Of a DNA stretch of 33,155 nucleotides, positions 2,128 through 33,155 are shown piece by piece. The stretch is from Rothia sp. (in: high G+C Gram-positive bacteria). GTDB taxonomy: Bacteria > Actinomycetota > Actinomycetes > Actinomycetales > Micrococcaceae. The stretch covers positions 1 through 33,155 of the forward strand of contig JAUMUA010000012.1 of NCBI GenBank assembly GCA_030530925.1, written 5' to 3'. Position 1 is the stretch's first letter, and each line of letters begins with the position of its first letter. A program made the position numbers and the translations under genes. The notes under the pieces were generated by a model. It searched no databases, was not told where the DNA came from, and worked only from the letters and a program-made list of their open reading frames with translations.

Positions 2128-2919
2128 TTATTCGGTGCCCAGATACTGCAGAGCTGCATCATGGAGCAATGAATTTGTAGCCACTGCGTTTGCTCCAAAT
2201 GGGCCCTCTTCGCCAGAAAGAGAAGTAAATCGTCCCCCAGCTTCTTGCACGATGGGCACCAACGCGGCCATGTCATGTAAATTCAGTTCGGGTTCTGCTG
2301 CGATATCTACCGCGCCTTCAGCAACCATGCAATACGACCAAAAATCACCAAAAGCTCGGGTACGCCATACCGTGTCAGTGAGTTCAAGCATCTTTTGGCG
2401 GTTTCCCAGTTTCTTCCAACCACTCAGCGAAGAATATGAGAATGACGCGTCGGATAGCTCAGATACTGTTGAAACGGAGATTCTCTTAGCATTGGCCAAA
2501 GACCTACCGGTGTAGGCTCCGGTACCTTCTGCCGCCCACCAGCGACGTTGTAACGCCGGTGCGGAGACCACCCCGAGCACCGGGCGTCCGCGATCAATTA
2601 GGGAAATCAGCGTCGCCCATACGGGCACGCCGCGCACAAAATTCTTGGTGCCGTCGATGGGGTCAATAACCCATTGACGAGGCGAGGATCCGGTTTCGCC
2701 AAATTCCTCACCGATGACGGCGTCCCGAGTGCGGACGCGCGAGAGTTGGCTGCGAATGAGCTGCTCCGCTTCGCGGTCGGCGTCGGTGACCGGGGTGAGA
2801 TCGGGCTTAGTCTCAACGCTAAAGTCTTGATTCTGGAACTTAGTGAGGGTGAGGCGGTCGACGCTATCTGCAAGGATATGTGCCAAGCGCAAATCGTCGG
2901 TATAAGAATTAGAGTTCAT
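2128..2919 (-). CDS. hisN: Inositol-monophosphatase-family phosphatase, probable histidinol-phosphatase HisN
   Basis: Mg2+-dependent phosphatase of the IMPase superfamily (263 aa). Metal-binding motifs are visible: GEEFGE (about residues 70-75), WVIDPIDGTKNF (about 83-94), and a C-terminal region with LHDMAAL in place of the usual WDxAA motif. In actinobacteria such proteins downstream of aroA-rsgA have been assigned as histidinol-phosphatase, the step that dephosphorylates L-histidinol phosphate in histidine synthesis. The assignment to HisN rather than inositol phosphatase rests on synteny and is not provable from sequence alone. The ATG at 2919 has only a weak AGAGA upstream and follows the rsgA stop by 32 bases, so it is probably the last gene of the aroA-rsgA-hisN transcript. 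Confidence 0.85.
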   Translation of the reverse strand: MNSNSYTDDLRLAHILADSVDRLTLTKFQNQDFSVETKPDLTPVTDADREAEQLIRSQLSRVRTRDAVIGEEFGETGSSPRQWVIDPIDGTKNFVRGVPVWATLISLIDRGRPVLGVVSAPALQRRWWAAEGTGAYTGRSLANAKRISVSTVSELSDASFSYSSLSGWKKLGNRQKMLELTDTVWRTRAFGDFWSYCMVAEGAVDIAAEPELNLHDMAALVPIVQEAGGRFTSLSGEEGPFGANAVATNSLLHDAALQYLGTE

Positions 2920-2951
2920 AAGATGTGTTCTCTGACTGGGTGAGATAGTTT

Positions 2952-4043
2952 TTATTCAACAATACCGAGTTCTTTCTCAGAATCTACATCGGTGATTTCT
3001 TGAACACCCAATAATTTGCGTAGTGAGCGCAGACGAAGTTCGCCGTAGGCACCGGCTTTGCCTTCTGCTACCCATGTTGAGAGCGCGCAATCAGCCGCTG
3101 ATTCTGCGTGAGAGCAGCCCTTAGGGCAGTGCGCACTAGCGGGTGCGAGTTCAGCAAAAGCTCCCACGATATTTTCTTTTTCGATGTGCGCCAGACCGAA
3201 TGATCGGATTCCAGGGGTATCGATAATCCATGAGCTGGTGCTGTATTGCTGAGGACGTAGCGCCACCGCTGAGGACGAGGTATGACGGCCGCGCCCGGTC
3301 ACAGCATTGACGTGCCCGGTGTCACGGGTTGATCCGGTCAGCGCATTGACGAGGGTAGACTTGCCAACTCCAGAGTGTCCCAGCAGTACCGAGACTTCGC
3401 CGTCGAGCATCTGCAAAATGTCCTCTACCAAGGATGTTGTAAGCCCCTCAGAACCTTCCTCGCTGGGCGCTTTTCCATCAGAGGATTGCGAAAGCTTAAT
3501 TTCAAGACCCGCATGTTCGTAATAGTCCAAAAGCTCTTGGGGGTATTTGAGATCAGTTTTAGTAATGCAAAGAATAGGGCGGATTCCGGCGTCATAAGCC
3601 GCCACGATGGAGCGGTCAATAAATCCTGTACGAGGCTCAGGATTAGCTGCGGCTACCACAATAAATAATTGGGTTGCGTTGGCAACCACCACACGTTCAA
3701 AAGGATCGGTGTCATCAGCGCTACGGCGCAATAAAGTTGAGCGATCTTCGATGCGTACTAAGCGCGCTAAAGAACCCTCTTGGCCCGAGGTATCGCCCAC
3801 AAGCCCTACCAAATCTCCAACCACCACAGGGTTTTTGCGAAGCTCTTTGGCGCGTACTGCCACTACCGAATGTTCTTCAGAAGTGCCTTCGTGAACCACA
3901 GCGGTATAACGGCCCCGATCCACGGTAATAATTCGTCCGATCAGCGCATCTTTATAGGACGGTCGATCTTTGGTTCGCGGTCGAGAGCCCTTTTTATTAG
4001 GGCGGACTCGAATATCTGATTCATCCCAGGTTCTACGCGCCAA
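2952..4043 (-). CDS. rsgA: Ribosome small subunit-dependent GTPase A
   Basis: Circularly permuted GTPase that acts in late maturation of the 30S subunit (363 aa with this start). An N-terminal OB-fold (GRIITVDRGRYTAVV) precedes the GTPase. Motifs occur in permuted order: G4 as ITKTDL, then G1 GHSGVGKST, then G3 DTPGIRSFGL, followed by a zinc-binding C-terminal segment CPKGCSHAESAADC. I chose the TTG at 4043 (product MARRTWDESD) because it has AAAGAGG eight bases upstream, and RsgA relatives in this family begin with MARR. A longer ATG-initiated frame to 4133 exists, but it would overlap aroA by 101 bases and adds sequence unlike the family. With the TTG start the overlap with aroA is only 11 bases, typical of translational coupling. 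Confidence 0.92.
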   Translation of the reverse strand: MARRTWDESDIRVRPNKKGSRPRTKDRPSYKDALIGRIITVDRGRYTAVVHEGTSEEHSVVAVRAKELRKNPVVVGDLVGLVGDTSGQEGSLARLVRIEDRSTLLRRSADDTDPFERVVVANATQLFIVVAAANPEPRTGFIDRSIVAAYDAGIRPILCITKTDLKYPQELLDYYEHAGLEIKLSQSSDGKAPSEEGSEGLTTSLVEDILQMLDGEVSVLLGHSGVGKSTLVNALTGSTRDTGHVNAVTGRGRHTSSSAVALRPQQYSTSSWIIDTPGIRSFGLAHIEKENIVGAFAELAPASAHCPKGCSHAESAADCALSTWVAEGKAGAYGELRLRSLRKLLGVQEITDVDSEKELGIVE

Positions 4044-5406
4044 GGGACTGACCTCTTTCTGGGGTTTCGAATTGGTCGAGCATGTCTTTCCACATCGTTG
4101 GAAAATCTGGAAGAGTCTTTGAGGTAGTGGCAATATTTTCGATGACTGTACCTTTTATGCGAAGCCCAATGACCGCACCTGCCGTTGCCATGCGATGATC
4201 TGCATAGGTTTTGAAATGAGTGGCGTTTTGTACAGGTTTGAGAATTTCAATGCCGTCGTCGGTTTCTTGCGCGACGCCGTCCATCGCGTTGATTTCATGT
4301 ACCAACGCTTCAAGTCGGTTGGTTTCGTGCCCGCGCAGATGCGCGATGCCGCGTAGTCGGCTGGGGGAGTTCGCCAGAGCACAGAGGGCGGCAACGGTGG
4401 GGGCTAGCTCCCCAGCTTCAGAGAGATCAAGATCGATTCCTGCAAAACCGCTGTCTCGGTGCGCTGGGTTTTCGTGGACCGTCAACACATCATTATTCAA
4501 TTCCACCGTGGCGCCGAAAAGAGGCAAAATCTTTTTCCACATATCTCCACCCTGGGTGGTGTGCTGTGGCCAGCGGGGGATGCTAACGCTGGTGCCCAGC
4601 GCAATTGCAGAAACCAAGAAGGGACCGGCATTAGAGAGATCCGGTTCTACGGTAATCTCAAAGCCCGGAAAGCGTGTGGCAGGTACATGCCACGTGTAGG
4701 GCTCTGCTGTATCTACAGAAATTCCTACCTCACGCATTACCTCTAGCGTCATTTCGATATGCGGCATGGATGGGATCGCAGAACCCTGATGCCGAACGGT
4801 GAGACCACGAGGATATTTGGCGCTTGCTAGGAGCAGAGCCGAAAGAAATTGCGAAGATCCTGAGGCATCAATGGTTACCTCATCAGCTACGAATTTCTCA
4901 GGAGGAAGAATCGTAAAAGGAAGCTGATCATTTTGAGCCTCAACTTTCACTCCCAGATCACGTAGCGCACGAATCACTGGTTGCATGGGGCGATGGCTTG
5001 CATACTCATCGCCAAAAAAACGCGTTGTACCGGGCAAGAGAGCTGCAACAGGGGGAATAAATCGCATCACGTTACCGGCCAGACCGACGTCGATAGAGCG
5101 GTTTTCTTCTACACTCTGTTCAAAATTGATGGGATGAACGCGGATATCAGAGGTGCTGGAATCTGTAAGGTGCTCAACTTTGGCACCCAATGCCTCAATG
5201 GCTTGAATCATCAACGAGGTATCACGGGATCTGAGGGGTGCATGAATAATCGACGGCGAATCGGTTATCGCCGCCAGTAGCAAATACCGGTTGGTCAATG
5301 ATTTTGAACCTGGGATTTCAACGGTAGCTGATCCGCCAGTGAGGTGCCCGGCAAAAGGTGCCGCCCAATCGCCCGGTGATAAAGTTGCGTTCGATGATGA
5401 TGCCAA
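4033..5406 (-). CDS. aroA: 3-phosphoshikimate 1-carboxyvinyltransferase (EPSP synthase)
   Basis: Sixth step of the shikimate pathway: joins phosphoenolpyruvate to shikimate-3-phosphate (457 aa). Clear family motifs are PGSKSLTNR (residues 32-40), the AGNVMRF segment (residues 110-116, equivalent to the NAGTAMRP loop of E. coli), the PDLSNAGPFL stretch, and the C-terminal DHRMATAGAVIGL. The start is a TTG at 5406 with AGAGGA about 11 bases upstream; no ATG lies nearby in frame. A small hairpin (GGTGG/CCACC, 5436-5449) lies in the presumed leader. It is the first gene of aroA-rsgA-hisN. The residues at the glyphosate-contact loop differ from E. coli (Asn112 for Thr97, Phe116 for Pro101). Confidence 0.96.
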   Translation of the reverse strand: MASSSNATLSPGDWAAPFAGHLTGGSATVEIPGSKSLTNRYLLLAAITDSPSIIHAPLRSRDTSLMIQAIEALGAKVEHLTDSSTSDIRVHPINFEQSVEENRSIDVGLAGNVMRFIPPVAALLPGTTRFFGDEYASHRPMQPVIRALRDLGVKVEAQNDQLPFTILPPEKFVADEVTIDASGSSQFLSALLLASAKYPRGLTVRHQGSAIPSMPHIEMTLEVMREVGISVDTAEPYTWHVPATRFPGFEITVEPDLSNAGPFLVSAIALGTSVSIPRWPQHTTQGGDMWKKILPLFGATVELNNDVLTVHENPAHRDSGFAGIDLDLSEAGELAPTVAALCALANSPSRLRGIAHLRGHETNRLEALVHEINAMDGVAQETDDGIEILKPVQNATHFKTYADHRMATAGAVIGLRIKGTVIENIATTSKTLPDFPTMWKDMLDQFETPERGQSLGA

Positions 5407-5470
5407 AAGCTTGTTCGTCCTCTAGTTTTAGTGACGGTGGTCAGCCACCTATTTTACGCTGTTATACAGC

Positions 5471-5500
5471 AAAGCCCCGCCTCATTGAAGCGGGGCATTA
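5471..5500 (-). terminator. Terminator of the DoxX gene
   Basis: A seven-bp GC stem GCCCCGC/GCGGGGC (5474-5480 and 5490-5496). On the minus strand it is followed by a short T-rich run (CTTTGCTGT), 20 bases after the doxX-like stop codon. The tail is weak, so termination may be partial and allow some read-through into aroA. Confidence 0.65.
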
Positions 5501-5515
5501 CCTCATCACAACTTA

Positions 5516-6028
5516 TTAGTGACTGAAGAGATCCTCAGACTTATCTTTGATTTCCGAGCTAATCTTCTCTGATTTCTTAGCAATGTTTTCGCCGAGCTTG
5601 TTAGCGCGCCAGACCAACGAAGGGTTGCCGTCAGTATCTACTGCGGTGATGGCAATAGCACCGAGCAATGAACCATTGGTGAGAGCTACACGGGCGCGTG
5701 CTTTCTTAGCTTCTTTGGTCTCAGAATCAGCAGCGCTGTATTCGGTGTATGCGTTGAGAGCACCGGTGGTCAGAAGAACCATGGAAGAAATGCGAGGGAA
5801 CTTACCCAACGCGAACATTGAACCAGCAACTACCTGAGCGCCCGCAATACCCTGACCGATGAGTTCTTCTTTGCCCTTAAGCACAATCAACTGAGGGTTG
5901 GTCTTAGCAGCCAAATCAATTGCTTTAGCCAAATGAGCGTGTGAATCTGGGTTCTTCAAGTGATCTACACCTGAGAGAACAAAGCTTGAAGCGAGCAAGG
6001 GGCGTGCTAGTTTACGTACCAATGACAT
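5516..6028 (-). CDS. DoxX family membrane protein
   Basis: A 170-residue membrane protein with the DoxX pattern. The N-terminal helix RPLLASSFVLSGVDHLKNP is followed by a hydrophilic stretch, then helices around GIAGAQVVAGSMFALGKFPRISSMVLLTTGALNAYTEY and VALTNGSLLGAIAITAVDT, and a Lys/Glu/Ser-rich cytoplasmic tail. DoxX proteins are linked in other bacteria to thiol or redox homeostasis, and in mycobacteria to a membrane oxidoreductase complex; here this is only suggestive. The gene is divergent from the thiol-stress sigma factor next door, which fits a redox role by context. The SD AAAGGAAT lies just upstream of the ATG. A GC hairpin with an AAAC loop (6044-6059) sits just before the SD and might affect translation. 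Confidence 0.87.
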   Translation of the reverse strand: MSLVRKLARPLLASSFVLSGVDHLKNPDSHAHLAKAIDLAAKTNPQLIVLKGKEELIGQGIAGAQVVAGSMFALGKFPRISSMVLLTTGALNAYTEYSAADSETKEAKKARARVALTNGSLLGAIAITAVDTDGNPSLVWRANKLGENIAKKSEKISSEIKDKSEDLFSH

Positions 6029-6262: not shown

Positions 6263-6919
6263 ATGGCAACCGAAAATCTCACTCAACTCAGGGAGAACCC
6301 TCATGTTGATGCCGAGTTAGATATCCAAAGCGAGTCTGATGCTGATCGAAAAATCAGATTTGAACAAGAAGCCATGCAGTACGTAGACCAGCTCTACGGG
6401 GCAGCGCTCCGCATGGCGCGCAATCCTGCTGATGCCGAAGACCTAGTGCAAGAAGCCTATATGAAAGCTTTTTCCTCTTTTCATCAGTATCGACCGGGAA
6501 CGAATCTCAAAGCATGGCTTTACCGGATTCTCACCAACACCTACATTAATCTTTATCGCAAGCGTCAGCGTGAACCCTATCAGGCACACACAGACACCGT
6601 TGAAGATTGGCAGCTCGCGCAAGCAAGCTCTCACGATTCAGTGGGACTGGTCTCGGCAGAAGCTGAAGCTCTCACTCATTTGCCTGATGACGACGTCAAA
6701 AAAGCCTTGCAATCCATTCCCGAAGATTTTCGGATGGCAGTATATTACTCTGACGTCGAAGGCTTCTCGTATAAGGAAATTTCCGACATTATGAACACTC
6801 CATTAGGGACAGTGATGTCGAGGTTGCACCGCGGACGCAAAATGCTTCGGGATTTACTGGCTGATTACGCCGAAGAACAAGGCATTGCAACTCATCAAAA
6901 TACTAGAAAGGGTAAATAA
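6263..6919 (+). CDS. sigR: Thiol/heat-stress ECF sigma factor (SigR/SigH family)
   Basis: Group IV (ECF) sigma factor, 218 aa. Region 2 is clear (about residues 48-102: [53 protein letters not shown]). Region 4 contains the helix-turn-helix (about residues 165-205: [34 protein letters not shown]). The [19 protein letters not shown] segment and the Trp in EDWQLA are characteristic of the SigR/SigH group, which controls thioredoxin, Clp protease and other thiol-stress genes. The ATG has AAGGA upstream. The anti-sigma gene begins one base after the stop (TAA 6917-6919, ATG 6921), the standard sigR-rsrA arrangement. Both SigR (Streptomyces) and SigH (mycobacteria, corynebacteria) are used as names. 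Confidence 0.94.
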
Positions 6920-29713: not shown

Positions 29714-30736
29714 GTGAATACTTCGGCGGCGAGCACCGGCGCGGGTTCTCGCGAGCCCCTCAACGCCAAAGATATTCCCCAAGGCGCAAAAGTTACCGTT
29801 AAGGTTCCTGCCTCAAGCGCTAACCTAGGTCCTGGTTATGATTCGATGGGCATTAGCTTGGCTTATTACGATGAGCTAACTGTTGAACGACTGGCTTCAG
29901 AGACCCTGGAGTTTGACCTTAGCGGCGAAGGCACCGAAAACGTGCCACAGAACAGCTCGCATCTAGTAGTGCAGGCAATGTATCGTTGCTGGTCAGCTGC
30001 GGGTATGCAGGCTATGCCTGGAATCCGACTCACTGCTCACAATCGTATTCCTCATTCGCGAGGAATGGGATCTTCGGCGTCTGCCATTGTTGCCGGGATA
30101 GTGGCCGCAAATGCGTTGCTACCAGAATCAGACCGACTATCCCTCAATGAGCTCTTCCAACTATGTTCAGATATGGAGGGGCACCCAGATAACGTAGCGC
30201 CCTCACTCTTTGGAAACTTGGTTATTTCTTGGGGCGAGACGTCGAACTGGGAGTACCTCAGCATTCCGGTGAGCGCAGATATTACTCCTGTGGTGGCAAT
30301 TCCTGACTACGAAGTTTCTACCAAGATGGCGCGAGCTCTCATCCCCGCCACGGTACCGCACGCAGAAGCCTCGCAGAACTCAGCCCGAGCTGCCCTGTTG
30401 GCTCAAGCTCTATCGAATGCTCCGCAGTATCTTTTAGCCGGCACCCAAGACTTCCTGCATCAAAACTATCGAGCTGAAGCAATGGCACCTTCGGCGGCTT
30501 TGGTGGCGCACCTTCGAGAATTAGGGTTCCCCGCGGTGATTTCCGGAGCGGGCCCAACCGTCATGGTTTTTGCGCGTGGTGAAGACGAGCGTCGCGGCGT
30601 CATTGCTCAAATTGAGCAAGCGCAACAGATACCTGCGATTGGTGAGCACGCGGGTGCGCAACTGAGCTGGAGAGTGTTACCCGTGAACATTGATACAGAA
30701 GGTGTTATAGTTTTAGGTGAAGAGCCTATCCAATAA
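29714..30736 (+). CDS. thrB: Homoserine kinase
   Basis: GHMP-family kinase that phosphorylates homoserine for threonine synthesis, 340 aa from the chosen start. N-terminal VKVPASSANLGPGYDSMG is the usual first motif; the ATP-binding motif is PHSRGMGSSASAIVAG (residues 113-128); the C-terminal motif is AVISGAGPTVMVFA. I chose GTG 29714 because AGGAAG lies eight bases upstream; GTG 29693 would give seven more residues but has no clear SD. The Ser/Ala/Thr-rich start is probably disordered. It is the last gene of the argS-lysA-hom-thrB group. No hairpin terminator is seen after the stop. Confidence 0.95.
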   Translation: MNTSAASTGAGSREPLNAKDIPQGAKVTVKVPASSANLGPGYDSMGISLAYYDELTVERLASETLEFDLSGEGTENVPQNSSHLVVQAMYRCWSAAGMQAMPGIRLTAHNRIPHSRGMGSSASAIVAGIVAANALLPESDRLSLNELFQLCSDMEGHPDNVAPSLFGNLVISWGETSNWEYLSIPVSADITPVVAIPDYEVSTKMARALIPATVPHAEASQNSARAALLAQALSNAPQYLLAGTQDFLHQNYRAEAMAPSAALVAHLRELGFPAVISGAGPTVMVFARGEDERRGVIAQIEQAQQIPAIGEHAGAQLSWRVLPVNIDTEGVIVLGEEPIQ

Positions 30737-31054
30737 TCTGGATTGCGCCATTTATCATCACATAACGCATGTATGAATAGTTATAATTTATCAACAGTTA
30801 TGTGTTGACTATTCGTCTGATGAAATTCCACTGTGAAAATCATTTCAGATATTTCGTGTTGTACCCAAGGGCTTTTGCATAGCCGTGCGCTTTTGTTTCA
30901 ACACATCACTCACAGTTTTTTCAAATCCACTTTTCGAAGTTTTTTGTTTCTTGAACTGTGTAAAAACTCCCACTGATCTGATGGGGGAGTGTGGCACTAA
31001 TCTGATGTGCTCAACGAAAGATATTTTCGAACTTTATCGAGGGAAGGAACCTTC
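30737..31054 (+). other. Intergenic region and probable rho leader
   Basis: No gene is seen in this AT-rich 318-base stretch. It holds a perfect TATAAT (30782-30787) without a good -35. It also holds two direct repeats CACTGATCTGATG (30971-30983) and CACTAATCTGATG (30995-31007), start to start 24 bases apart, in the segment just before rho. A GGGAAGGA SD lies just before the GTG start of rho. No hairpin terminator of thrB is evident. Rho leaders are often sites of autoregulation in other bacteria; here this is inference. Confidence 0.55.
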
Positions 31055-31867
31055 GTGGCAGAATCCACCGACCGCACTGCGGCTCCGGAAGAAACCCAAT
31101 CTCCAACTTTGAGCAGCCTCAAACTCGCTCAACTTCAGTCTTTAGCCTCCCAACTGGGCATTTCTGGCGCTCGTCGTATGCGCAAATCTGATTTGGTAGA
31201 AGCTATTACTAATCACCAGCGTGGCGGCGCTATGGCTGCCCGCGAAGAATCTGCGGCGAACGAACAAAACGCAGAGACTGCAGAGAAGCCTCAGCGTAAG
31301 CGCGCTCCGCGCAAGAAAGTTGCTGACAAGAACGCTTCGGATCAGAACAATGCAGAGCAAAACAGCTCCGAGCAAAATACTGCTGAGCAATCCTCTGAAT
31401 CTGCCGAACAGTCTTCACAACACGCTGAAAACCAGGATTCTGCGGCTGCTGAGAAGTCTAAGGCGCCAGCGCGACGTCGTAATCGCCGCGCAACCTCAAA
31501 TGGTTCAGGCGAAGATACCGCTACCGTTTCAACCGAGGGTGAGCGCGAACAAGAAGGCTCAGCCGAGAGTTCTGATAACTCGCAGAATGCGGACGAGAGC
31601 AGCGAGAAGAATAACCGTCGCACTCGAAACCGCTCTGATCGCCGTCGTAAGTCTCAAGCAGAGAACCAGGTTGAAGAGACCAACGAAAACACTGATGACG
31701 CCGATCACTCTGAGCAGTCAGCAGATCGTGGCGCAGAAGGCGAGCGCACTAATTCTCGCAAGCGTACCCGCAACGATCGCAATAAGCGCAATGATCGAAA
31801 TGACCGTGGCGAGCGTTCGGACCGCAACGATCGCTCGGATCGTAACGAGGTTAAATACAAGTTTTAA
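31055..31867 (+). CDS. rho: Transcription termination factor Rho, N-terminal part, ended by in-frame TAA
   Basis: The first 270 residues of Rho. It starts at GTG 31055 with GGGAAGGA upstream. A Rho-N (SAP-like) segment LKLAQLQSLASQLGISGARRMRKSDLVEAI (about residues 23-51) is followed by a long polar, low-complexity region of the kind seen in high-GC Gram-positive Rho: Ser/Glu/Gln/Asn-rich, then Arg/Asp/Asn-rich with RNDR-like repeats. The frame reads NEVKYKF and then stops at TAA 31865-31867, in a T4A10 tract. The following bases continue in the same phase as Rho. If real, this yields only a truncated, inactive N-terminal fragment. A single T-to-A change at 31865 would turn TAA into AAA and restore the whole frame. 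Confidence 0.85.
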   Translation: MAESTDRTAAPEETQSPTLSSLKLAQLQSLASQLGISGARRMRKSDLVEAITNHQRGGAMAAREESAANEQNAETAEKPQRKRAPRKKVADKNASDQNNAEQNSSEQNTAEQSSESAEQSSQHAENQDSAAAEKSKAPARRRNRRATSNGSGEDTATVSTEGEREQEGSAESSDNSQNADESSEKNNRRTRNRSDRRRKSQAENQVEETNENTDDADHSEQSADRGAEGERTNSRKRTRNDRNKRNDRNDRGERSDRNDRSDRNEVKYKF

Positions 31868-32030
31868 AAAAAAAACAAGAACGACCGCAACGAGCGTGCT
31901 GATCGCAACGACCGTGGCGACCGCGAAAACTCGAATAACGGCCCTGAAGACGATTCACGCAACAAGCGCAACCGCAACCGCCGCGATCGTCAGAACGAGC
32001 GTCGTAATCGCAACCGCCGTCATTCCAACG
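31740..32030 (+). repeat. Degenerate short repeats in the Arg/Asp/Asn-rich part of rho
   Basis: Repeated units of about six to nine bases (variants of AACGACCGC, GATCGCAAC and CGTGGCGAC) encode RNDR, SDRN and RGDR-like motifs. The tract continues on both sides of the TAA at 31865 and is prone to assembly or slippage errors. Confidence 0.7.
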
Positions 32031-33155
32031 ATTACGATGAGCCAGAGATTACCGAGGACGACGTCCTTGTACCTGTAGCGGGTATTCTGGACGTTTTGGA
32101 CAACTACGCATTCGTGCGTACCTCCGGTTACCTTCCCGGTCCTTCAGATGTCTACGTTTCGCTGAACCAGGTTAAGCGTTACAGCTTGCGCAAGGGCGAC
32201 GCCGTCGTCGGTGCTATTCGCGCTCCTCAGGAGAACGAAAACAAGAATAACCAGCGCCAGAAGTTCAATGCTTTGGTGCAGCTAACTTCCATTAACGGTT
32301 TGGATCCTGAGACTTCAAAGAATCGCCGCGATTTTGGAAAGCTCACCCCGCTGTACCCCCAGGAACGCCTACGCCTTGAGACCGAACCGAAGAAAATCGG
32401 CACTCGTGTGGTTGACTTGGTGGCTCCTATTGGTAAGGGTCAGCGTGGTTTGATTGTTTCGCCTCCTAAAGCGGGTAAAACCCTCATGCTTCAGTCGATT
32501 GCTAACGCAATTACTACCAACAATCCCGAAGTGCATTTGATGATGGTGCTCGTTGACGAGCGTCCTGAAGAAGTCACCGATATGCAGCGCACGGTTCAGG
32601 GCGAAGTTATTGCTTCAACCTTTGATCGTCCGGCAGAAGACCACACGACGGTGGCTGAGCTGGCTATCGAGCGCGCAAAGCGTTTGGTAGAGCAGGGGCT
32701 TGACGTCGTCGTTCTCTTGGATTCGATGACTCGCTTGGGCCGCGCATACAACCTCAGCGCTCCTGCCTCGGGTCGTATTCTTTCCGGTGGTGTGGATTCG
32801 GCTGCGCTGTACCCACCCAAGAAATTCTTTGGTGCTGCTCGCAACATTGAAGAGGGTGGCTCGCTCACTATCTTGGCAACTGCTCTGGTTGAAACTGGGT
32901 CCAAGATGGACGAAGTGATCTTTGAGGAATTCAAGGGGACTGGCAACATGGAATTGCGTCTCTCCCGCCAGTTGGCAGATAAGCGCATTTTCCCCGCTGT
33001 GGACGTCAACTCCTCAGGTACCCGCCGCGAAGAGAATCTTCTCTCGAGCGAAGAAGTCAAGATTATGTGGCGTTTGCGTCGGGTTCTTGCAGGTCTCGAT
33101 CAAGAGCAGGCTTTGGGCGTTTTGACCTCAAAGCTTCGCGATACTCAGTCCAACG
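31868..33155 (+). pseudogene. rho: Transcription termination factor Rho, catalytic core, in phase after the internal stop (3' end outside window)
   Basis: Continuation of rho in the same frame as the N-terminal part. After a basic linker (RNKRNRNRRDRQNERRNRNRRH) comes the RNA-binding cold-shock-like domain (GILDVLDNYAFVRTSGYLPGPSDVYVSLNQV). The RecA-like ATPase follows with FGKLTPLYPQERLRLE, P-loop SPPKAGKTLM, Walker B VVVLLDSMTRLGR, and the R/Q-loop region SGGVDSAALYPPKKFFGAARN. The core looks intact with no further stops to the window end. No in-frame ATG or GTG with an SD lies between the stop and the RNA-binding domain; the first GTG (32114) lies inside that domain. So separate translation of a working core is unlikely. 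I call it a pseudogene for the sequence as given; a sequence error is quite possible. Confidence 0.75.

Follow-up and report, generated by a model that had tools for sequence, protein, structure and literature searches.

Micrococcus luteus belongs to the same bacterial family as the Rothia draft genome studied here. Rho is described as essential in this species and in M. tuberculosis (PMC8828861). The actinobacterial protein is described as carrying an insertion of 150-200 residues in which Arg, Asp, Asn and Gly abound and hydrophobic and aromatic residues are very scarce (PMC4167861). In the present draft an in-frame TAA stands within the low-complexity insertion of rho, and three options had been offered for it in a preliminary description: a true null allele, read-through or recoding of the stop, and an error at the homopolymer.

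Slippery runs can be sites of programmed recoding, known examples being the prfB-type +1 shift and slippage on A runs; a long A run is slippery by nature. A literature search for an in-frame stop or readthrough in rho of Rothia gave nothing on the topic in titles and abstract openings. In long-read assemblies, errors that fragment genes are treated by Kastor (PMC12007338) as a recognised class. Were the stop real, a bacterium of a group in which Rho is reported to be essential would live without Rho or would recode rho.

Experimental procedures

The window, that is, the whole stretch of DNA analysed (33,155 bases), comprises bases 1-33155 of contig C112 of the draft (genome G000). The assembly has 2,094,769 bases in 124 contigs and is 87.61% complete and 2.03% contaminated. 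A sample of 970,824 bases (46% of the genome) was used, mostly the first 20 kb of each contig in numerical order, with parts of contigs C20, C79 and C120 picked for their A runs; 15 loci consisting almost entirely of N were set aside.

The genus set consisted of 35 genomes including this one, from a collection with one genome per species. The nearest congener (G029) was used as the reference for dN/dS. For breaks in other genes, 173 non-overlapping frames were compared, over 68,152 aligned residues, with frames that run from stop to stop in 840 kb of G029.

Results

The rho frame starts at GTG 31055 and runs exactly in frame, through 270 codons, into the TAA at 31865-31867, which is formed at the junction of a T4 run (31862-31865) and an A10 run (31866-31875) (Table 1). 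Downstream of the TAA the frame is open in unchanged phase until the window end and matches Rho. The preliminary description had stated that the stop is in frame, that the phase is equal on both sides and that there is no frameshift, and this was confirmed. Against TIGR00767 the gene scored 619.5 bits, above the curated cut-off (509.45), in a match that the tool carried through the stop; the search of the genome for rho found this frame interrupted by 1 internal TAA. In addition, rho is cut by a 10-N scaffold gap (contig positions 33156-33165) directly past the window end, the sole gap seen in this contig; beyond it a frame with a rho C-terminus like that of G029 is followed by a stop. In another collection, the closest named relative for the Rho core was Kocuria varians (89% identity).

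Table 1. Features of rho in the window
Feature	Position	Strand	Remarks
rho 5' part: Rho_N domain and low-complexity N-terminal insertion, up to the stop	31055..31864	+	Pfam PF07498, residues 19-53; 270 codons
In-frame TAA of rho	31865..31867	+	
A/T-rich alien patch in rho	31850..31875	+	3 G/C in 26; within a 12-codon in-phase insertion relative to G029
A10 run in rho	31866..31875	+	found twice genome-wide
rho remainder, same phase: RNA-binding domain and ATPase core	31868..33155	+	Pfam PF07497, PF00006; NCBIfam rho

No second intact rho was found in the assembly (87.6% complete). Two extra matches, both on one other contig, were rejected as a second copy, being weak (32.4 and 19.5 bits); comparable weak matches are present in other genomes of the genus too.

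The stretch 31850-31873 had been described as strikingly AT-rich and unlike its surroundings. This was borne out over 31850-31875, which is unique in the window: among its 33,132 24-mers only six have three or fewer G/C, with starts at 31850-31855, and no 24-mer elsewhere in the window is as A/T-rich. A10 occurs 2 times in the 2,094,769-base genome, the second time directly after a C26 run and 84 bases from a 10-N gap. In the bodies of the 173 compared genes (203,634 bases) the A10 of rho is the only A/T run of at least 8, and the patch is one of only two spots with two or fewer G/C in 24. The unique 24-mers, the two genomic occurrences of A10 and the lack of any A/T run longer than 8 in 840 kb of G029 show that the A/T richness is more than chance. 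Both genomic A10 runs are exactly 10 long, which raised the idea, not claimed here, that such a run stands for a 10-N gap with A in place of N; elsewhere, however, 10-N gaps stay written as N.

In a protein alignment with G029 a 12-codon in-phase insertion spans the patch, so that the anomaly is the entire patch and not a single letter. AAA is used for 3 of the 4 Lys codons within the patch, as against 7 of 34 elsewhere in the counted stretches of rho. Among 28 relatives (27 congeners and G036), only 3 have a distal linker with three hydrophobic or aromatic residues in six positions. The patch deviates from the Arg/Asp/Asn/Gly-rich style of the actinobacterial insertion. These observations bear on a narrower form of error, in which the A/T-rich insertion would be real and would encode a Lys-rich linker, only the stop being due to a base-calling error at the T4-A10 junction. 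The residues flanking the stop are basic, like much of the linker, and the phase is kept, as such an error would have it; the codon usage and the hydrophobic triple, which put the whole patch out of style, and its top rank in A/T content among the 24-mers of the window count against it, and we consider this form improbable.

In none of the 34 other genomes of the genus, with one genome per species, was the patch found in rho, as expected of an artefact. The patch pattern (20 bases, three or fewer mismatches) was present in 2 of the 35 genomes, this one and G026. In G026 it occurs once, on contig C2, and rho is on contig C5.

All 35 genomes of the genus have rho above the cut-off. The match is stop-free in 33 of the other 34 (that in G015 spans model positions 44-414 only), and the sole exception, the 72% complete draft G023, has a different TAA, in the ATPase core, on contig C112 (L171), about 205 bases before the contig end. 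In a sample of the family, 391 of 395 genomes have rho above the cut-off, with no stop in rho among the matches listed; the four genomes without such a match are 68-89% complete, and one is a single contig. That single contig (G367) is 89% complete. The linker, delimited by landmarks, is 204-279 residues long at 28 loci (27 congeners and G036, which is of another genus; G015 was dropped, as it has no landmark).

After the stop, amino acid identity to G029 is 93.6% over 425 codons, with dN 0.051 and dS 1.26 (near saturation), that is, dN/dS of about 0.04; before the patch, identity is 58.7% over 242 codons, with dN 0.37 and dS 1.18. Downstream of the stop the conservation is that of a working rho and selection is not relaxed as it would be in a decaying pseudogene; around the patch, rho is under purifying selection. 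This conservation argues against old decay and is silent on a very recent lesion, which would stay invisible. After the stop there is no in-frame ATG, GTG or TTG before 32096, which is already inside the RNA-binding domain, so that re-initiation would not yield an intact core. A rarer start, ATT, is found at 32048, upstream of that domain.

A true, recent nonsense allele would mean that a real A/T-rich insertion in the linker brought the stop with it, so that this strain, or a fraction of the population sampled, ends translation after 270 residues and lacks functional Rho. On either side of the stop the frame is exact, and elsewhere the window is clean: each of its other long genes aligns to G029 as one piece. 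The range of linker lengths among relatives indicates that insertions are tolerated, and the lack of a restart is what a null allele would entail. Against this stand the conservation of rho past the stop, the stop-free matches of nearly all congeners, an assembly that holds no other rho and the reported essentiality of Rho in Micrococcus luteus and M. tuberculosis (PMC8828861). A nonsense allele is thus unlikely.

The +1 frame is open across the stop, from 31221 to 32078. This and the phase kept across the stop would suit read-through or recoding, in which ribosomes would pass the UAA in its slippery U4A10 context and yield a little full-length Rho, possibly as a switch, either by plain read-through or by two opposite slips (forward and backward) on the A run, which together restore the phase. 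The UUUU-AAAAAAAAAA junction would then be a recoding site within the disordered N-terminal insertion, where a small fraction of ribosomes goes on to full-length Rho and the termination factor is tuned by read-through or paired slippage. We consider all of this very improbable. Conservation in relatives, which recoding would lead one to expect, was not seen: the stop with its A10 context is found in none of the 34 congeners. Stop usage in 156 orthologous genes (TAA 108, TAG 40, TGA 8) makes TAA the commonest stop, which speaks against its reassignment. The 15 anticodons listed in a sample of 971 kb (46% of the genome only) include no suppressor, and restoration of the frame after one slip requires a second.

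No terminator-like or promoter-like site was found in 31700-32050 and no Rfam family at gathering score in 30700-33155, where two weak matches fell below threshold; a regulatory or structural element at the stop was rejected on these grounds, which weighs against recoding too. The stop site itself is weak as a hairpin, and the 50-mer directly upstream (31801) is fairly stable, with rank 43 of 3,311. A hairpin as the cause of the patch is only suggestive.

An origin of the patch in a mobile element was considered too. An 18-base piece of it has 12 exact matches in IMG/VR, which are taken as chance since the word is so A/T-rich. Both flanks of the patch with 0-30 bases between them gave no match in IMG/VR; as the window has 32 bases there, this covers shorter versions only. 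A search with the Rho core for a contig of the same species gave two distant relatives only (55% and 52%), so that with no flank match no same-species contig was obtained.

The sample contains 37 runs of N, of which 35 are exactly 10 long. A whole-genome search found five A/T runs of at least 9, all within the sample: the A10 of rho and four others that lie 22-84 bases from a gap, in a sample of which 0.8% is within 100 bases of a gap. In the 840 kb of G029 no A/T run exceeds 8 and there are no gaps. The flanks of the gaps on contigs C13, C20, C79 and C3 are homopolymer-rich and look garbled. Runs of G10, T9, A9, C26 and A10 were seen beside 10-N gaps at 10400-10550 of L194 (C20), 10550-10670 of L214 (C79) and 9640-9690 of L154 (C3). 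On C13 (L164, about 6757-6890) a garbled copy of a hairpin, with G9, A8 and C11, lies left of a 10-N gap; its counterpart on the right is cleaner and has no A8, and the two align over most of their length. In our reading the cleaner copy is the true one, and false A runs can arise in this assembly. Corrupted-looking sequence similar to the patch is thus present elsewhere at gaps, the patch in rho being itself away from one. At position 3283 of L207 (C32) a 100-N gap has 55 identical bases on each side, as if a stretch had been written twice.

Among the 173 compared genes, six in-frame stops lie inside the best alignments and affect five genes. The four besides rho have theirs within 60 bases of the alignment's beginning, where similarity is low; in our reading these stops precede the true start, which leaves rho as the one gene interrupted in the alignment body. 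Three genes are split over two alignments, two of them at N gaps and the third, infB, being the one frame break not at a gap. There (C27, L202) frames 2654-3550 and 3370-5622 meet in a Gly/Arg/Asn/Pro-rich low-complexity linker, the second frame being IF-2; in G029 infB is one frame of 994 residues. Within the genus (35 genomes) the infB frame has 934-1,020 residues, save here (751), in G012 (724) and in G028 (split). The IF-2 frame of G012 is shortened on contig C3 (74753-76543), and that of G028 is divided between contigs C74 and C65. With short or split infB in these genomes too, the break is rare and not unique to this draft, and it supports an error in rho less strongly than the gap flanks do.

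Discussion

We conclude with high confidence that the in-frame TAA of rho is an error of the draft assembly, a conclusion in which the base-calling variant confined to the stop is included; the stop is most likely not a real feature. The reasons are the alien composition of the patch, its restriction to this assembly and its likeness to the corrupted-looking gap flanks, together with a second defect in the same gene, the 10-N gap, and the conservation around the patch. The evidence favours a garbled patch of about 26 bases over a simple homopolymer miscall. In the true genome, rho would encode a full-length Rho with an N-terminal insertion that is Arg/Asn/Asp-rich and of low complexity. In the assembly, about 26 bases of the repetitive tract would have been replaced or interrupted by an erroneous homopolymer-rich sequence that happens to contain a TAA and to preserve the phase. 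Poor reads in the repetitive tract may be the origin, and the raw reads would probably lend the patch no support.

Several observations run against an error. The phase is preserved, an outcome expected of roughly one error in three. Whereas the other four long A/T runs lie close to N gaps, the patch is 1,281 bases away from the nearest one. Outside gaps the assembly looks clean, and the stop site is not a strong hairpin. As to the three options first offered, the error is favoured, as a patch rather than a simple miscall at the homopolymer; read-through or recoding found no support, with no such stop in congeners and TAA as the commonest stop. The null allele is disfavoured by the reported essentiality of Rho in Micrococcus luteus (PMC8828861) and the absence of decay, and keeps a small share of the probability.

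At gaps the draft contains patches that are rich in homopolymers and look corrupted, and some of its low-complexity coding regions are broken (rho and infB); any nonsense or frameshift allele called in this draft requires read support.

The gene resembles rho of the type found in M. tuberculosis and Micrococcus luteus in having Rho_N, a low-complexity insertion, an RNA-binding domain and an ATPase core, and differs in that the insertion holds an in-frame stop and an A/T-rich patch. With programmed recoding the locus shares a U-run beside the stop and a long A run; unlike such systems, nothing like it was found elsewhere in the genus, and a single slip fails to restore the frame. With gene-fragmenting assembly errors it shares an early stop in a gene that is intact in relatives, a low-complexity tract, a fragmented draft and corrupted-looking sequence at the gaps of this draft; it differs in that the phase is kept, so that it is not the usual indel frameshift.
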